From positions 1,674,001 to 1,738,000 of the forward strand of contig NZ_CP019511.1 in NCBI RefSeq assembly GCF_002002925.1: a DNA stretch of 64,000 nucleotides, written 5' to 3'. A model generated the notes under the pieces. The model saw only the letters and a program-made list of their open reading frames with translations, did no database searches and was not told the DNA's origin. Of the stretch, positions 2,148 to 8,491 are shown piece after piece. Each line of letters opens with the position of its first letter. Positions within the stretch are counted from its first letter, which is position 1. The translations under genes and the position numbers were made by a program. This DNA comes from Sphingomonas sp. LM7 (lineage in GTDB: Bacteria > Pseudomonadota > Alphaproteobacteria > Sphingomonadales > Sphingomonadaceae).

Positions 2148-2759
2148 TTACAGTTCCACGATCCGGCTGCCGAGCCGTTCGGCTTCGGCGCGGTCGTGGG
2201 TGACCATCAGGATCGGCAGGCGCAGCGCGTCGCGCAGCCGCTCGATCAGGCCCATGATCTCTTCGCGCCGAGCGCGGTCGAGCGAGGACAAGGGCTCGTC
2301 CAGAAGCAGGAAGCGCGGGTTGGAGAGCAGCGCGCGCCCGATCGCCACACGCCGCGCCTCGCCGCCCGAAAGCGTGCGCGGCCAGCGATCGAGCAGCCCG
2401 GCAAGCCCAAGCAGTGCGATCGTCTCGTCGACATCGACGGCGCCTTCGCCGCTGCGCCAGCCATATAGAAGATTGGCCTGCACGCGCTTGTGCGGAAACA
2501 GCCGCGGCTCCTGGAAGACATAGCCGGCGCGGCGGCGCTCGGGCGGCACGTCGAGGCCGAGGGCGGCGTCGAACAGGGTCTCGTCGCCGATGCGGACATG
2601 CCCGCGATCGGGCTCGACCAGCCCCGCGACCATGCCGAGCACGCTGGTCTTGCCTGCTCCCGAGGGACCGAACAGCACGGTCAGGCCGTCGCCGCCCGCG
2701 ATCCGGCAGGCGATCTCGGTGTCGCCCAGCCGCTTGGCGACATCGATGTCAAAGGACAT
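2148..2759 (-). CDS. modC: Molybdate ABC transporter ATP-binding protein (short form)
   Basis: This 203-residue ATPase has Walker A GPSGAGKTS (around residue 32), signature LSGGEARR, Walker B FLLLDEPLSSLD and a following switch His. It overlaps the 3' end of modB by 11 bp and completes a modA-modB-modC order on the minus strand. Textbook ModC proteins are ~350 residues with a C-terminal TOBE/MOP domain that binds molybdate; this one stops straight after the ATPase domain, so that regulatory domain is absent. The short form is seen in other bacteria, and no frameshift is visible. Role: energises molybdate (or tungstate) import. Confidence 0.85.
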   Translation of the reverse strand: MSFDIDVAKRLGDTEIACRIAGGDGLTVLFGPSGAGKTSVLGMVAGLVEPDRGHVRIGDETLFDAALGLDVPPERRRAGYVFQEPRLFPHKRVQANLLYGWRSGEGAVDVDETIALLGLAGLLDRWPRTLSGGEARRVAIGRALLSNPRFLLLDEPLSSLDRARREEIMGLIERLRDALRLPILMVTHDRAEAERLGSRIVEL

Positions 2760-3438
2760 GCAGCCCCCGCCCCGCGCGCCGCGCGATCATCTCCGAGGCT
2801 ATAAGCGCGACGAGCGACAGCAGCACCGATACCCCCGCCAGCCGCAATACCAGCGCCTCGCCGCCCGGGGTCTGCAGCGCGGCATAGATCGCCAGTGGCA
2901 GCGTCTGGGTTTCGCCGGGAACATTCGAGACGAAGGTGATCGTCGCGCCGAACTCGCCGAGCGCGCGGGCGAAGCCGAGCACCACCCCGGCGATAACTCC
3001 GGGCAGGCTGAGCGGCAGCGTCACGGTGCGAAAGGTGCGCCAGCGGCTTGCTCCCAGCGTTCGCGCCGCCTGTTCGAGCCGCAGATCGACGCCCTCAATT
3101 GACAGCCGGATCGCGCGGACCATCAGCGGCAGCGCCATCACGCCCGCCGCCACCGCCGCACCGGTCCAGCGAAACAGCACGCTGACTTCGAACCAGCTTT
3201 CGAGCCACGCCCCGATCGGCCCTGCCGGGGCGAAGGCGAGCAGCAGCAGCCAGCCGGTCACCACCGGCGGCACGACCAGCGGCAGATGCACCAGCGCGTC
3301 CACCAGCACCTTGCCGGGAAAACGCGCGCGGGCGAGCAGATAGGCCAGCGCGAACGCCAGCGGCAGGCTTGCCAGCACCGCGACGCCGCCGACCTTGAGC
3401 GACAAGGCGACGATGCCCCATTCCTCGGGCGTCAGCAT
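2749..3438 (-). CDS. modB: Molybdate ABC transporter permease
   Basis: The 229-residue membrane protein starts at the ATG at 3438, one base past the modA stop codon. The frame is open further upstream but only as an Arg/Cys-rich shadow of modA. It has five to six hydrophobic segments and the EAA-type cytoplasmic loop (residues ~130-150, EQAARTLGASRWRTF) that docks on ModC. The motif FARALGEFGATITF is the diagnostic ModB/CysT-family segment. It should form the inner-membrane channel of the high-affinity molybdate importer. Confidence 0.9.
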   Translation of the reverse strand: MLTPEEWGIVALSLKVGGVAVLASLPLAFALAYLLARARFPGKVLVDALVHLPLVVPPVVTGWLLLLAFAPAGPIGAWLESWFEVSVLFRWTGAAVAAGVMALPLMVRAIRLSIEGVDLRLEQAARTLGASRWRTFRTVTLPLSLPGVIAGVVLGFARALGEFGATITFVSNVPGETQTLPLAIYAALQTPGGEALVLRLAGVSVLLSLVALIASEMIARRAGRGLHVL

Positions 3439-3439
3439 C

Positions 3440-4201
3440 TCACAGCGCCTGGAAGCCGAACCGCACGAAGATCGCCTTGCCCGCAGGCGACAGCAGGAAG
3501 CGGCGCAGTCCCTCGGCGTCGGGGCTGGTCGACGCCTTGAGCCGCGCGAGCGGATAGCGGATCGGTGGGTGGCTGCTTGCCGGGAGCATCCGCACCGCGC
3601 GCACCTGGCGCGAGGCGCGCGCATCGGTAACATAGACCACGCCCCATTCCGCCGCGCCGCGCTCGACCAGCGCCAGCGCCGCGCGGACATTCTCGGCGCG
3701 CACCACGCGCTGCGCGACTGCGTTCCACAAGCCCAGTTTCTGCAGCGACGCCTGCGCATAGCGGCCGGCGGGAACCGAAGCCGGATCGGCCAGCGCCACC
3801 CGGCCGCTCGCCAGCAACCGCGACAGCGGGATGTTTGCGGTCGCGGCGCGCGCGGTGACGGGCTGTACGACCACCAGGCGGTTGCCGAGCAGATTGGCTC
3901 GGGTGCCCGGGACGATCAGCCCGCGGCGCTGGACATCGTCCATCCACGGTTCGTCGGCCGAGAAGAACAGGTCCGCCGCCCCACCCGCCGCAACCTGTCG
4001 CGCGAGTGCGGAGGAAGCGGCAAAGGACAGCACCGGCCGGACATGGCCGAGCCGCGCCCAGACATCCGCCGCAGCGTTCATCGATTCCTGCAGGCTGGCG
4101 GCGGCCAGCACCAGCGGCGGGCGTTGCGCCGCCAGCGCACGCGCGGACGGCAGCGACGCCGCGGCCGCACCGATCAGAAATTCGCGCCGGTCCAACCGCA
4201 T
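3440..4201 (-). CDS. modA: Molybdate-binding periplasmic protein
   Basis: The 253-residue protein begins with a twin-arginine-like leader (DRREFLIG followed by an Ala-rich core), suggesting Tat export. The mature part has the ModA hallmarks LVLAAASLQESMN (first oxyanion-binding Ser) and FAASSALARQVAAGGAADLFFSAD (second binding Ser and hinge). The remainder has the bilobed periplasmic binding-protein pattern. It heads the modABC set; a glycosyltransferase gene on the same strand ends 61 bp upstream, so readthrough is possible. Whether it prefers molybdate or tungstate cannot be told from sequence alone. Confidence 0.88.
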   Translation of the reverse strand: MRLDRREFLIGAAAASLPSARALAAQRPPLVLAAASLQESMNAAADVWARLGHVRPVLSFAASSALARQVAAGGAADLFFSADEPWMDDVQRRGLIVPGTRANLLGNRLVVVQPVTARAATANIPLSRLLASGRVALADPASVPAGRYAQASLQKLGLWNAVAQRVVRAENVRAALALVERGAAEWGVVYVTDARASRQVRAVRMLPASSHPPIRYPLARLKASTSPDAEGLRRFLLSPAGKAIFVRFGFQAL

Positions 4202-4262: not shown

Positions 4263-5306
4263 TCAGCCGAGGCGCGAGAGGCCGCGCTTCACGGCACGCA
4301 TCCCGCCGATCACCTGGCTGGTGAGCAGGTCCGCCGCCGCGCCGAGCGGCATCGGCTGGCTGCCGAGCGTGCGATGCAGCAGCAGCGAGCCCGAACGCAC
4401 ACTGGCACGGCAAACCCGCCACCAGAGCTGCGAAATCTCGCTGTCCACCGCCGTGAGATCCTCCCGATGCTGTGCGCCGAATTCCTGCCGCAGCACGGCG
4501 ATGCCGCTGAACAGCCGGTTGAGCGTCTCGATATCGGGCACCGGCTCGCGCGCCATGACGTGGCGGACCAGCAGCGCGGCGATATCCGGGGCGCCGTCGC
4601 CGAGCAGCGACTGGTGCCGCTCGCGCAGCAGCAGTTCGGCGTGGGCGCGCATCGTGCCGTTGAACACTTGCGACGCGCCGCCGGCATGGCAGCGATAGAG
4701 CATCAGCACTTCGTCGATCTGCGCGACGCGGCCGTGCGGGCGCAGTCGCTGATATAGGTCGAAATCCTCGACATAACGCATCTCGGGCCGCTCGAACGGA
4801 TCGAGCCGCCGCGCAGCATCGGCGCGGAACATCACCGAGGACCACGCGATCGGGTTCTGCACCAGCATCAGCCAGTCGATCAGCACCGGGGTCAACGGAC
4901 GTGGCCAATTGCCGGGGTGGCGCTTGTTGTCGATCAGATAGTCGGTCGCGCTGCTGACCAGCGCGACGTCCTGATGGGCATCGAGATAGGCGACCTGCTG
5001 CGCGAAGCGCTCAGGCAGGCTGATATCGTCCTGGTCGAGCCCCGCGACATAGCGTCCGCGCGCCGCGGCGAAGGCGATGTTGCGCGCCACCACCGGGCCG
5101 CCATTGACCTCTGCGCGGATGACCCGGACCCGCGGATCGTCGAGCCGTTCGAGCACTGCGACGCTGTCGTCCTTCGAACAATCGTCGACGGCGATCAACT
5201 CCCAGTGCGTCAGCGTCTGCGCGCGCAGGCTTGCCAGCGTTGCGGGCAGCAGCACCGCGCCGTTGTATACCGCCATGATGACGGAGACGGTCGGCGCCGC
5301 ACTCAT
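4263..5306 (-). CDS. Family 2 glycosyltransferase
   Basis: The 347-residue protein opens with PTVSVIMAVYNGAVLLPATL, the GT-A nucleotide-binding start of GT2 enzymes. It carries VDDCSKD (first Asp of the sugar-nucleotide site) and GLDQDD (DxD-like metal site), then an RYVEDFDLYQRL acceptor-loop segment. No membrane helix is visible in the N-terminal half. The ATG at 5306 overlaps the stop of the aminotransferase-flavoprotein fusion by 4 bp, so both proteins are made from one message and probably act in one pathway. A plausible job is attaching a modified amino sugar to a surface glycan or small molecule. Donor and acceptor are unknown. Confidence 0.85.
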   Translation of the reverse strand: MSAAPTVSVIMAVYNGAVLLPATLASLRAQTLTHWELIAVDDCSKDDSVAVLERLDDPRVRVIRAEVNGGPVVARNIAFAAARGRYVAGLDQDDISLPERFAQQVAYLDAHQDVALVSSATDYLIDNKRHPGNWPRPLTPVLIDWLMLVQNPIAWSSVMFRADAARRLDPFERPEMRYVEDFDLYQRLRPHGRVAQIDEVLMLYRCHAGGASQVFNGTMRAHAELLLRERHQSLLGDGAPDIAALLVRHVMAREPVPDIETLNRLFSGIAVLRQEFGAQHREDLTAVDSEISQLWWRVCRASVRSGSLLLHRTLGSQPMPLGAAADLLTSQVIGGMRAVKRGLSRLG

Positions 5307-7813
5307 GCGACTGCCTGTGCCTGCAGGTCGAGCAGTTGGTCCACGATCATGTGGCCGATGTCGTTCTGCCACAGCCACAGGCCGTTGGCCTTGCCGCTGA
5401 AGCTCGCTTCTCCGCCCAGCCGACCATCGGGAACATGCCCCGAGGCGAGGCCGATCCCGAAAACGCCGGGCACCGGCCGGCCCTCGATATCGATCACCCG
5501 GCATTGCTGGTCAACGAGGCGCGGCCGCCCTGGTGCGTCGGCAGCGAGCGCGATGCGATTGCCGTCGAGATCGTACAGCGGCAGCGCGCGCGGGCGATAG
5601 CCGAGCGCGCCGATGACGATATCCGCCGCTTCGATCTCGGCGCGGACCGCGGAATCCTCAATCGTGCCGATCCGGCGCAGCGCCATGCGCGGATCGGGCG
5701 CGCGGCCGCCGACGCCGAGCATGCGAAGCACGAGCTCGCGCGCCTCCAGCCGGAAGCCGGCGAGCCGATAGACGAACCCGCTGACCGGGCAGATATCCTG
5801 CGCGCCGAAGTCGGTGAAGCCGTCGGCACGCGCCGCCTCGACCGACGGATAGAAGGGCCGTAGCGGCCGGCGATGATAGAGCGCCAGTGCCCCCGCCCCC
5901 AGCGCCAATGCCGGTGCCGCCTTTAGCAGCAGCGCCGCCGCGGCAAGCGCGCTGGTCGATCCGCCGACGATCGCGATGCGCGGCGCGGGCACGCCCGCGA
6001 TCCGCGCGCGCAATGCGTCGAGCCCGCCGATGCGGAGGAATTCGTCGCCCGCCATCAGCCGCTCGCCGGCCAGCGTGCCCAGCGCCACCCCGGCGACCGG
6101 TTCGGCATAGACATTGGCGCGGGTCTGATAGCCGCCGGTCGCGATCACGAGCTTCTCCGCGCGCATCACCCGCACTTCGCCAGTGACGAGGTTACGCACT
6201 CGTGCTGCCCAGGCGCCGTCGGCGGTGCGCCGCGCCTCGACCACGTCGCTGCGGGTCACCACCGTGCCGCCCTGCCCCGCTACGATCGTCGCGAGTTGCG
6301 CGCCGGTCGCTTCGAGGAACGGCGTGGCGCGTGCCAGCGGCACGCCCAGCTTACCGACATGCATGGCGATTTCCTGGCCCGCGCTATGCACTTCGAGCGC
6401 AGCGATGCCGTCATTGGCATTGCCCTTGACCGCCGTCAGGAACGTCTCCGCCGTACTGTCCGACGTGATCGCATAGGTGCCGATCTCGCCGCGGCCGAGC
6501 ACCGCATCGCGCTCAACCACGGCCAGTCCCGAATTGGCCAGCCGGACCAGCGCATCGCTCTTGCTCGCCGCCGTGAGCAGCGCGGTTCCCGCGGGACCGC
6601 CGCCGACGATCAGCGCCGAATGGAGATGGCTGCCGCGCCGCTCCGACCCGACCAGCCCCTTGAGCCCCGAGGCTGCGCAGGCATCGATCAGCGCCCCGCA
6701 CACCCGCTCGACATCGCTCTGCGACATCCCGTCCGTGACCGGCAGCGACAGGATGCGCGCGCCGACATCGTCGCATACCGGCATCGGCTCGCTGACGCCG
6801 TGCGCGCGGAACCAGGGCTGCTCGCCCAGATGCGGGCTGAAGTAACTGGCCGCGCCGATGCCCTGCTCGGCGAGCGTATCGATGATCGCACGACGGTGCC
6901 CGGCAAAGGCGCGCGGCAACAGCAGCGACTGGAATTGCAGCGCCGGGCGCGATCCGCGCAACTCCTGGAACTCGAACCCTTTCTCGGCGGCGAACCCGCC
7001 CAGCATCTCGCGATAGACGGCGTCGAGCTGCATCCGGTGCGCCGCAATGCCCTCGATTTCCTCGAGCTTGGCGCGCGCCGCAAGGCCGAGCACTTCGGGA
7101 AGCTTGGCATTGAACCCAGGGCCCTCGGCCGAGCGCCCGCCTGCAAAGCCGAAATTGCTCATCCGGCGCAGCGCCGCGATCAGATCGGCGTCGCCCGAAT
7201 GGACGAGGCCGCCCTCTGCCGTGGCGAACACCTTGGTCGCATGCATCGAATAGACGATCGCGAAGGGCGCGCCGGCACCGAACTGGCCGCGGTCCGCATC
7301 CAGCGCGCCGAGCGAAGCCGCGGCGTCGATCACCACGCCCACGCCGCGCTCGGCATAGCCGCGGTAGCGCGCCAGATCGATGCCCGCGCCGAACGTGGCA
7401 TAAGGGACCACCGCGGCGATGCGATCGCCATATTTCTCGAATGCCCGCGCCTCGGCCTCGGCGCTTGCCGCCCAATCCTCGGGGTCGATGTCACACAGCA
7501 ACGGCGTCAGCCCTGCCCATTCCGCGGCATGCGCGGTTGCGGCGAAGGTGAAGCCCGGGATCAGCGCGAAATTACCCTTGCCCGCGCGCGGCCCCGCGGC
7601 ATGGCGGGTCGCCATCATCAGCCCCAGCGTGGCGTTGCCTACCGCAAGGCAGTCCCCTACCCCGCCGAACAGCTTCGCAGTCGCCGCGGCCTCGAAGCCG
7701 CGCACCACCGGCCCGCCATTCGAATAGACGCCGCGCGCCTCGATCTGCGCCAGCGCATCGCCCATCTGGCTCAGCTTTGGCGGGCACGGCGCGATCAGCG
7801 GCAGCCGATCCAT
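5303..7813 (-). CDS. Fusion of DegT/DnrJ/EryC1-type aminotransferase with FAD-dependent oxidoreductase
   Basis: A single 836-residue frame joins two complete domains. Residues 1-380 form a PLP sugar aminotransferase of the DegT/DnrJ/EryC1/StrS family: VGNATLGL cofactor loop near 58-65, VIDAA with Asp163, and the Schiff-base Lys194 in MHATK followed by AEGG. Residues ~398-836 form a flavoprotein with GGGPAG at 404-409, LVIATGGYQ near 555-563, a second dinucleotide motif (IAIVGGSTSA, 613-622) and a late VFGIGLASG FAD segment, a layout like class B flavin monooxygenases or ornithine/lysine N-hydroxylases. The linker (~380-398) is short and charged. The stop overlaps the GT2 start (ATGA). I infer formation and then oxidation of an amino sugar or amino acid derivative; the substrate is unknown. 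No frameshift is needed to explain the join. Confidence 0.8.
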   Translation of the reverse strand: MDRLPLIAPCPPKLSQMGDALAQIEARGVYSNGGPVVRGFEAAATAKLFGGVGDCLAVGNATLGLMMATRHAAGPRAGKGNFALIPGFTFAATAHAAEWAGLTPLLCDIDPEDWAASAEAEARAFEKYGDRIAAVVPYATFGAGIDLARYRGYAERGVGVVIDAAASLGALDADRGQFGAGAPFAIVYSMHATKVFATAEGGLVHSGDADLIAALRRMSNFGFAGGRSAEGPGFNAKLPEVLGLAARAKLEEIEGIAAHRMQLDAVYREMLGGFAAEKGFEFQELRGSRPALQFQSLLLPRAFAGHRRAIIDTLAEQGIGAASYFSPHLGEQPWFRAHGVSEPMPVCDDVGARILSLPVTDGMSQSDVERVCGALIDACAASGLKGLVGSERRGSHLHSALIVGGGPAGTALLTAASKSDALVRLANSGLAVVERDAVLGRGEIGTYAITSDSTAETFLTAVKGNANDGIAALEVHSAGQEIAMHVGKLGVPLARATPFLEATGAQLATIVAGQGGTVVTRSDVVEARRTADGAWAARVRNLVTGEVRVMRAEKLVIATGGYQTRANVYAEPVAGVALGTLAGERLMAGDEFLRIGGLDALRARIAGVPAPRIAIVGGSTSALAAAALLLKAAPALALGAGALALYHRRPLRPFYPSVEAARADGFTDFGAQDICPVSGFVYRLAGFRLEARELVLRMLGVGGRAPDPRMALRRIGTIEDSAVRAEIEAADIVIGALGYRPRALPLYDLDGNRIALAADAPGRPRLVDQQCRVIDIEGRPVPGVFGIGLASGHVPDGRLGGEASFSGKANGLWLWQNDIGHMIVDQLLDLQAQAVA

Positions 7814-7954: not shown

Positions 7955-8491
7955 ATGATTCTCGGCCCACCAGAACAGATCGATTCGGCCACTCGCGCCT
8001 TTTGCGCGACCATCTCGCCCGAAACCCCGTTCTATGTGCCGGTTCGGCCCGCACCGGCATCCAAACCCGCATATTGCTTCGACAACTCAGTCACCTATGC
8101 ACAAGCGAATGGCGGCGAAGCGGTTTATGGCTGGGCGATCTGGCACTGGCCGGGCCGGTGGTTCGAGGCCGAGCACCACGCCGTGTGGCGCAGCCCCGAT
8201 GGCGACCTGCTCGACGTCACGCCGCAGGCCGGCGATCCCGTCCGCGTGCTGTTCCTGCCCGATCCCAGCGCACCCTACGATCCCAGCACGTTCCGCCCCA
8301 ACATCATGGCACCCGACGGCGACAGCGCGGACGTGCGCGAATATATCGCGCTGGTCGCCCAGCGCGGCGACATTACCCGAACCTATTGGGAACCGGGGAT
8401 GGACGTGCTGCCGCTGTTCAGCGCCGAGGACCAGCGCCGATTGGACCCGATCGACGCGCGCATGGCCGAGCTCCGCGCCGCGATCGCCTGA
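7955..8491 (+). CDS. Hypothetical protein, possible papain-fold (NlpC/transglutaminase-like) hydrolase
   Basis: The 178-residue protein starts at the ATG at 7955, divergent from the fusion gene. I do not recognise a named family. It has a Cys-Phe-Asp-Asn segment (near residue 41), then a GWAIWHWPGRW stretch, EAEHHAVW (His pair near 71) and DLLDVTP (Asp near 83). Cys, His and Asp in that order and spacing recall cysteine hydrolases of the papain fold, but this is inference from motif order only. There is no signal peptide or membrane helix. The gene ends 12 bp before the COG2509 flavoprotein gene on the same strand, so the two may be co-transcribed. Confidence 0.6.
   Translation: MILGPPEQIDSATRAFCATISPETPFYVPVRPAPASKPAYCFDNSVTYAQANGGEAVYGWAIWHWPGRWFEAEHHAVWRSPDGDLLDVTPQAGDPVRVLFLPDPSAPYDPSTFRPNIMAPDGDSADVREYIALVAQRGDITRTYWEPGMDVLPLFSAEDQRRLDPIDARMAELRAAIA

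Follow-up and report, generated by a model that had tools for sequence, protein, structure and literature searches.

A fused DegT aminotransferase and flavoprotein in Sphingomonas, coupled to a family 2 glycosyltransferase, is a candidate for making and oxidizing an amine

The stretch of DNA analyzed here, called the window, comprises 64,000 nucleotides of Sphingomonas sp. LM7 (assembly GCF_002002925.1, contig NZ_CP019511.1, positions 1,674,001 to 1,738,000). It encodes, as one protein, a DegT-type aminotransferase fused to a flavoprotein predicted to bind flavin adenine dinucleotide (FAD) and NAD(P), and the gene is followed directly by one for a glycosyltransferase of family 2 (GT2). On balance, we favor a two-step enzyme, in which the DegT half would turn a ketone into an amine and the flavin half would oxidize that amine to an N-hydroxylamine or beyond, for use in a surface glycan. 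The coupling on which this reading draws recurs outside Sphingomonas, with the two halves in either order.

The fusion gene occupies a minus-strand frame of 836 codons without an internal stop (Table 1), and the plus strand is broken over the same interval. A first-pass annotation had proposed a one-protein fusion in a single open frame, leaving the strand unstated; the frame bears this out, and no missed stop or frameshift is found at residues 380 to 398. In all 41 aligned fusions, the stretch between the positions matching residues 376 and 399 is in frame and spans 18 to 26 residues. For these residue counts 42 rows were aligned, the reversed-order fusion L048 being left out and compared by BLAST; locus L037, described below, is not among the 41. 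A chance read-through of two adjoining genes, or an assembly error, is ruled out by this conservation of frame, with conserved motifs flanking a variable linker in many assemblies from two overlapping collections, and we give it practically no weight. The two annotated records of the fusion are both named after the aminotransferase half only.

Full-length fusions, 56 to 79% identical to that of the window, are present in 19 of 36 other genomes of the genus, so the fusion is no accident of a single assembly; in one further genome, G007, it lies in two pieces across two contigs. A second collection, overlapping the first, yielded 24 relatives in Sphingomonas or Sphingomonadales records, 56 to 91% identical. 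None of the 24 genomes analyzed from the order's other genera gave a match that reached the flavin half. Genome G018 (locus L076, 10046 to 10506) retains a remnant consisting only of residues 1 to 47 and about 726 to 835, the middle having been deleted; since a relative of the GT2 gene still stands beside it, the DegT-FAD module can evidently be lost. One of the 24 relatives in the second collection, L037 (7998 to 9190; Sphingomonas xinjiangensis), has its DegT half divided between two frames, with the flavin half and GT2 each in one open frame; the split may reflect either a sequencing error or genuine decay.

The aminotransferase half matches Pfam PF01041 (DegT_DnrJ_EryC1) at residues 20 to 375, with 186.8 bits against a cut-off of 19.8, and has the fold of the DegT family. 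Its pyridoxal phosphate (PLP) residues are intact, as had been claimed: Lys194, which from family knowledge we take to form the Schiff base, and Asp163, presumably the partner of the ring nitrogen, are identical throughout the 41 aligned fusions. The best named relatives are nucleotide-sugar enzymes (DesI, PseC, ArnB, and perosamine synthase), and AHBA synthase is among the fold relatives; the cut-off of the DesI equivalog TIGR04427 is not reached by the window protein (162 bits against 650). By its class, the predicted role of this half in converting a ketone to an amine is well supported.

The flavin half gives a modest match to Pfam Pyr_redox_2 (residues 400 to 632; 30.3 bits against a cut-off of 26.1). 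Both dinucleotide motifs are intact, in agreement with the first-pass annotation, with G404, G406, P407, G617, S619, S621, and A622 invariant across all 41 aligned fusions; the wider count of 65 FAD-family sequences in Table 1 leaves out two weak matches, G503 and G596. The GY motif at residues 738 to 739 resembles the ATGY motif of N-hydroxylases. When a model of the flavoprotein domain (m0092fd1d509d; predicted local distance difference test score, 83.8; predicted template modeling score, 0.82) was searched with Foldseek, ranks 1 to 48 were occupied by N-hydroxylating monooxygenases together with the flavin monooxygenase DiatB. No acyl-CoA dehydrogenase fold, the nitrososynthase type, appears among the matches listed, 50 each from Foldseek and VIA-align, and FrbG is not among the structural matches listed. 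None of the eight family members scanned, the window protein included, reached an NCBIfam cut-off, and the flavin half belongs to an unnamed family. We tentatively infer a role as an N-oxygenase of the class B type, which uses FAD and NAD(P)H.

The third component, GT2, adjoins the full-length fusion in each of the 19 carrier genomes of the genus. Profile searches placed it immediately 3' of the fusion, with spacings of -6 to +39 bp, in every one of the 57 intact DegT-FAD rows, which include several genomes twice. In the window, its start codon overlaps the fusion stop (ATGA), and the coupling proposed at first pass thus holds.

Table 1. Features of the fusion gene and the adjoining glycosyltransferase gene (window positions)
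Feature	Position	Strand	Evidence
Fusion gene, 836 residues: DegT aminotransferase, linker, FAD/NAD(P) flavoprotein	5303..7813	-	Unbroken ORF (open reading frame), Pfam domains
DegT/DnrJ/EryC1/StrS aminotransferase domain, residues 1-380	6674..7813	-	
Lys194, taken as PLP Schiff-base lysine, in S-x-H-x-T-K	7232..7234	-	K in 41/41 fusions
Asp163, taken as partner of PLP ring nitrogen	7325..7327	-	D in 41/41 fusions
Interdomain linker, residues 381-396, variable in sequence and length	6626..6673	-	Linker stretches compared across fusions
Flavoprotein domain, residues 397-836, two dinucleotide-binding sites	5306..6625	-	Structure model, Foldseek
FAD-binding motif GGGPAG, residues 404-409	6587..6604	-	G404, G406, P407 identical in 65/65 FAD-family sequences
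Second dinucleotide motif GGSTSA, residues 617-622, putative NAD(P)H site	5948..5965	-	G617, S621, A622 in 65/65; S619 in 64/65
D-x-C motif, residues 673-675, family hallmark	5789..5797	-	D673 and C675 identical in 65/65
GY motif, residues 738-739	5597..5602	-	65/65 FAD-family sequences
GT2 glycosyltransferase, 347 residues	4263..5306	-	Pfam PF00535 (Glycos_transf_2), 109.5 bits, cut-off 23.3

With the FAD half alone as bait, a relative was found in 20 genomes (9/299, 7/289, 1/274, and 9/59, in overlapping sets), most sampled genomes having no match, so that the family is rare. A DegT domain was fused or adjacent to the FAD gene in 17 of these 20 genomes and in seven of nine genera, the order varying; the three misses, G202 and the weak matches G503 and G596 (135 to 139 bits, without DegT), are kept in the denominator. 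Pairing of FAD, DegT, and GT2 was counted from six-frame profile searches, a simple gene caller having given doubtful frames in some loci. Because the bait profiles were seeded with coupled as well as uncoupled members, the tally leans towards coupling. By rough estimate, the probability of chance adjacency to one of the few DegT genes in a genome would be well under one per cent. The recurrence of fused or adjacent DegT in 17 of 20 genomes, and in both fusion orders, argues that the halves form a functional module.

The arrangements differ among lineages. On a plasmid of Granulicella tundricola (Acidobacteriota), the fusion is reversed, FAD then DegT, with 41% and 49% identity to the respective halves; the next gene encodes a GT2-family glycosyltransferase (65.4 bits) that the window GT2 query missed at an E value of 1e-10, and nearby genes carry annotations for polysaccharide export, Wzz, and sugar transferase. 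The alphaproteobacterial genome G395 likewise has a reversed fusion, with a GT2-family gene just upstream. In G583, G198, and G541, an unfused DegT gene immediately precedes the FAD gene, and the opposite order is found in nine genomes of two genera in one family of another proteobacterial class. By Pfam, the pair in G121 and G583 is accompanied by chain-length (Wzz/Wzc) genes and polysaccharide-flippase genes, that in G885 by a flippase gene, and that in G583 and G198 by FkbM-type methyltransferase genes. At two loci, L063 (7908 to 9389) and L095 (6627 to 8117), the DegT partner is about 490 residues long, carries an N-terminal CBS domain (cut-off, 24 bits; L095 scores over it, at 31.7, and L063 below it, at 20.8), and overlaps the FAD gene. 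In a tree of the FAD half, the two reversed fusions group together (98/96) and the unfused pair of G583 adjoins the Sphingomonas fusion with weak support (84/76); the DegT tree leaves the reversed fusions and G583 unresolved. These sequences are most simply read as two separate fusions of an adjacent pair, one for each order. The DegT partners in G198, G541, and the FAD-first genera sit on long branches of the DegT tree, and the FAD family may therefore have paired with different DegT subfamilies.

FAD relatives without DegT occur in six lineages, in three of which a PLP enzyme is encoded next to the FAD gene or one gene away. In Shinella, the FAD gene overlaps a PLP gene of the Cys/Met type, inside a nonribosomal peptide synthetase/polyketide synthase (NRPS/PKS) cluster. 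The FAD genes of Erwinia and Rahnella are followed by a nucleotidyltransferase-aminotransferase fusion, and further along the cluster comes an acyltransferase domain of the AAC(3) type. Plasmids of Erwinia rhapontici (L050, 11920 to 22912) and Rahnella sikkimica (L052, 11920 to 22827) carry matching sets: the FAD member, the nucleotidyltransferase-aminotransferase fusion, a CDP-alcohol phosphatidyltransferase, a HAD protein, an AAC(3)/HAD-IIIC protein, MaoC/SDR in one or two genes, an ATP-grasp protein, and an MFS protein. G202 and the weak pair G503 and G596 have no partner of the PLP or acyltransferase type in the stretches viewed. In an Oxalobacteraceae bacterium, BJB404 (L045, 7998 to 10151), a flavin half 40% identical to that of the window is fused to a glucosamine-6-phosphate-isomerase-like domain (PF01182, 57.6 bits), a further amino-sugar coupling.

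The Priestia relative belongs to a cluster on plasmid pBM700 of Priestia megaterium QM B1551 (L053, 9494 to 17598; also L101), where the FAD gene lies between two ATP-grasp genes and the gene of an AAC(3)-type N-acyltransferase, followed by a PLP fusion akin to that of Erwinia and Rahnella and an extra DXR gene. In this PLP fusion, a nucleotidyltransferase is joined to a PLP domain resembling CobD (173 bits with TIGR01140, below cut-off); the second DXR gene scores 656 bits with NF009114. The extra DXR suggests that the host protects itself against an inhibitor of that enzyme; fosmidomycin and FR-900098, the inhibitors of this kind that are known, are both N-hydroxy-N-acyl compounds. The cluster resembles a pathway for a fosmidomycin-like hydroxamate, possibly with a phosphate ester in place of a phosphonate. 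No phosphoenolpyruvate mutase is annotated in the 49 kb around it, in a gene table that may be incomplete.

Activity on keto-sugar nucleotides had been expected at first pass, and as a general statement about the usual ones this did not hold. The genome of the window has RmlA and RmlB, and RmlB scores over cut-off in 18 of 20 carriers of the fusion (not in G006 or G034) and in 10 of 13 noncarriers, with no clear association; here the remnant-bearing G018 is a noncarrier, and the less complete G007, G015, G020, and G035 are left out. GMD scores over cut-off in nine of the 20 carriers. Genome G034 (estimated to be 100% complete, in about five contigs) carries a fusion with intact key residues plus GT2, and has neither RmlA nor RmlB over cut-off and no GMD match, on which ground a dTDP-4-keto-6-deoxy sugar was rejected as the general substrate; in G006 (99%), RmlA and RmlB are also not over cut-off. 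In view of these two genomes, the substrate would not be the 4-keto-6-deoxy sugar of the dTDP or GDP routes, or else would depend on the species. A scan for PF02719, covering three genomes, gave three matches in G034 over the low Pfam cut-off (best, 39.6 bits), a profile that does not tell UDP-N-acetylglucosamine dehydratases from other sugar-nucleotide enzymes.

Perhaps, then, the substrate is not a sugar at all, and the fusion serves a small-molecule metabolite that GT2 glycosylates, which would be compatible with N-oxidation. DegT enzymes also make amino-inositols and amino-benzoates, and AHBA synthase as a fold relative, the FAD relatives in the Shinella NRPS/PKS cluster and in Priestia, and the profile results for G034 all speak for this. 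We nevertheless consider it unlikely: the nearest named DegT relatives act on nucleotide sugars, polysaccharide genes lie near the pair in several lineages, and the FAD half of L045 is fused to an amino-sugar type of domain.

For the two-step enzyme, we envisage that the DegT half, with PLP and an amino donor, would aminate a keto group in a sugar or in a sugar-like compound; the flavin half would oxidize the new primary amine to a hydroxylamine, and possibly on to an oxime, nitroso, or nitro group; and the coupled GT2 would transfer the product, or glycosylate it, in a surface glycan. The sequence of amination, oxidation, and transfer, put forward in the first-pass annotation, is plausible on the gene content, and N-oxidation (for example, N-hydroxylation), which it had offered as an instance, is the best-supported role of the flavin half, on the Foldseek neighbors and the profile scans of the family. 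The main rival reverses the two steps: the flavin half would turn an alcohol group, on a sugar, polyol, or sugar nucleotide, into the ketone that the DegT half then aminates, and one protein would convert alcohol to amine by itself, with no bond formed between nitrogen and oxygen. A dehydrogenase and a DegT aminotransferase are a common pair, for example, in routes with a 3-dehydrogenase and a 3-aminotransferase; no ketone-making gene was recognized beside the window fusion; and such an enzyme would explain how G034 can have the fusion without RmlB or GMD as a source of 4-keto sugar. The usual sugar-alcohol oxidases and dehydrogenases, however, belong to fold classes other than the two-dinucleotide (FAD plus NAD(P)H) type, and the closest structural matches are to monooxygenases and disulfide reductases. 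N-oxidation is also the better fit for those relatives that neighbor other PLP enzymes and N-acyltransferases, and we think the reversed route improbable.

Somewhat less probable again, in our judgment, is that the flavin half, as a monooxygenase of the class B type or a reductase, has another target, be it carbon, sulfur, a Baeyer-Villiger step, or an imine, and is linked to DegT only through a shared pathway. It would accord with VIA-align, which places a flavin-containing monooxygenase (FMO) and the disulfide reductase YpdA above the N-hydroxylases, and with the invariant D-x-C motif, which N-oxidation leaves unexplained. Against it stand the repeated direct pairing with three types of PLP enzyme (DegT, class I/II, and Cys/Met) and the DegT fusion in both orders, which favor the amine itself as substrate. 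The VIA-align ranking, the D-x-C motif, and the commonness of dehydrogenase-DegT pairs weigh against N-oxidation, as do the profiles: PF13434 (SidA/IucD/PvdA; cut-off, 21.3) is passed by only two of 14 family members (L051, 26.2 bits; L053, 23.6 bits), and the window protein has no match to it at an E value of 0.1. To these may be added that another PLP gene stands alongside in only three of the six DegT-less lineages, and that the sequence profiles are equivocal.

Two sets of neighboring genes were also noted. Downstream of GT2, an ABC transporter set on the minus strand (2148 to 4201; binding protein, permease, and ATPase by Pfam) is of the molybdate type by eye, and its binding protein recurs in 21 loci, some from the same genome, at varying distance. 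Upstream and divergent is a plus-strand gene (7955 to 8491; 178 residues) without a Pfam match, with relatives in 10 loci, two of them from the window's own genome, mostly directly upstream of the fusion.

The data point to a recurrent two-step modification encoded beside glycan genes, most likely formation of an amine and then its N-oxidation. If this is right, the flavin family would be a new one among enzymes that introduce N-O bonds, and the presence of N-oxidized sugars in surface polysaccharides would be open to direct test in soil bacteria. That the product is specifically an amino sugar with an N-hydroxy, nitroso, or nitro group, built into surface glycans of Sphingomonas and other bacteria, made through a flavoenzyme family unlike the known nitrososugar enzymes in fold, is a more speculative proposal, and we regard it as rather doubtful. 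If it is true, N-oxidized sugars would be a hidden, recurrent part of bacterial surfaces, beyond antibiotics, where they might serve metal binding or redox or radical chemistry. No description of the fusion, its two orders, or the flavin family was found in the open-access literature, coverage that takes in few subscription papers, in keeping with the remark at first pass that no described pathway with this fusion was known to it. The two halves are each of an enzyme type already known, and the fusion, both orders, and the unnamed flavin family are apparently undescribed.

Several known systems share parts of this design. The DegT fold and the PLP lysine and aspartate are common to the window protein, DesI (dTDP-4-keto-6-deoxyglucose 4-aminotransferase; PDB 2po3), and the uncharacterized Bacillus cereus protein 3ju7, with 30 to 32% identity across the domain; these two are stand-alone chains of 424 and 377 residues, whereas the window DegT is fused to a flavoprotein. 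Class B N-hydroxylating monooxygenases (SidA, PvdA, KtzI, and putrescine N-monooxygenase) have two dinucleotide-binding sites and a GY motif, as in the window, and are nearest to its model by Foldseek, yet at about 13 to 17% identity and with the window protein below PF13434; they act mostly on amino acids and diamines and are not known to be fused to an aminotransferase. In calicheamicin biosynthesis, CalS13 and CalE10 carry out amination and then N-hydroxylation on a TDP-sugar, as two separate proteins, the oxidase being a P450, in contrast to the single protein with a flavin half described here. The nitrososynthases ORF36, KijD3, and DnmZ are flavin enzymes that oxidize the amine of a nucleotide sugar, and their acyl-CoA dehydrogenase fold differs from the two-Rossmann model of the window flavin half. 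FrbG of FR-900098 biosynthesis is reported to be a flavin N-hydroxylase with similarities to group B that acts on a cytidine monophosphate (CMP) conjugate (PMC7347517). It is a precedent for N-hydroxylation of a nucleotide-bound amine, in a phosphonate pathway rather than on a sugar.

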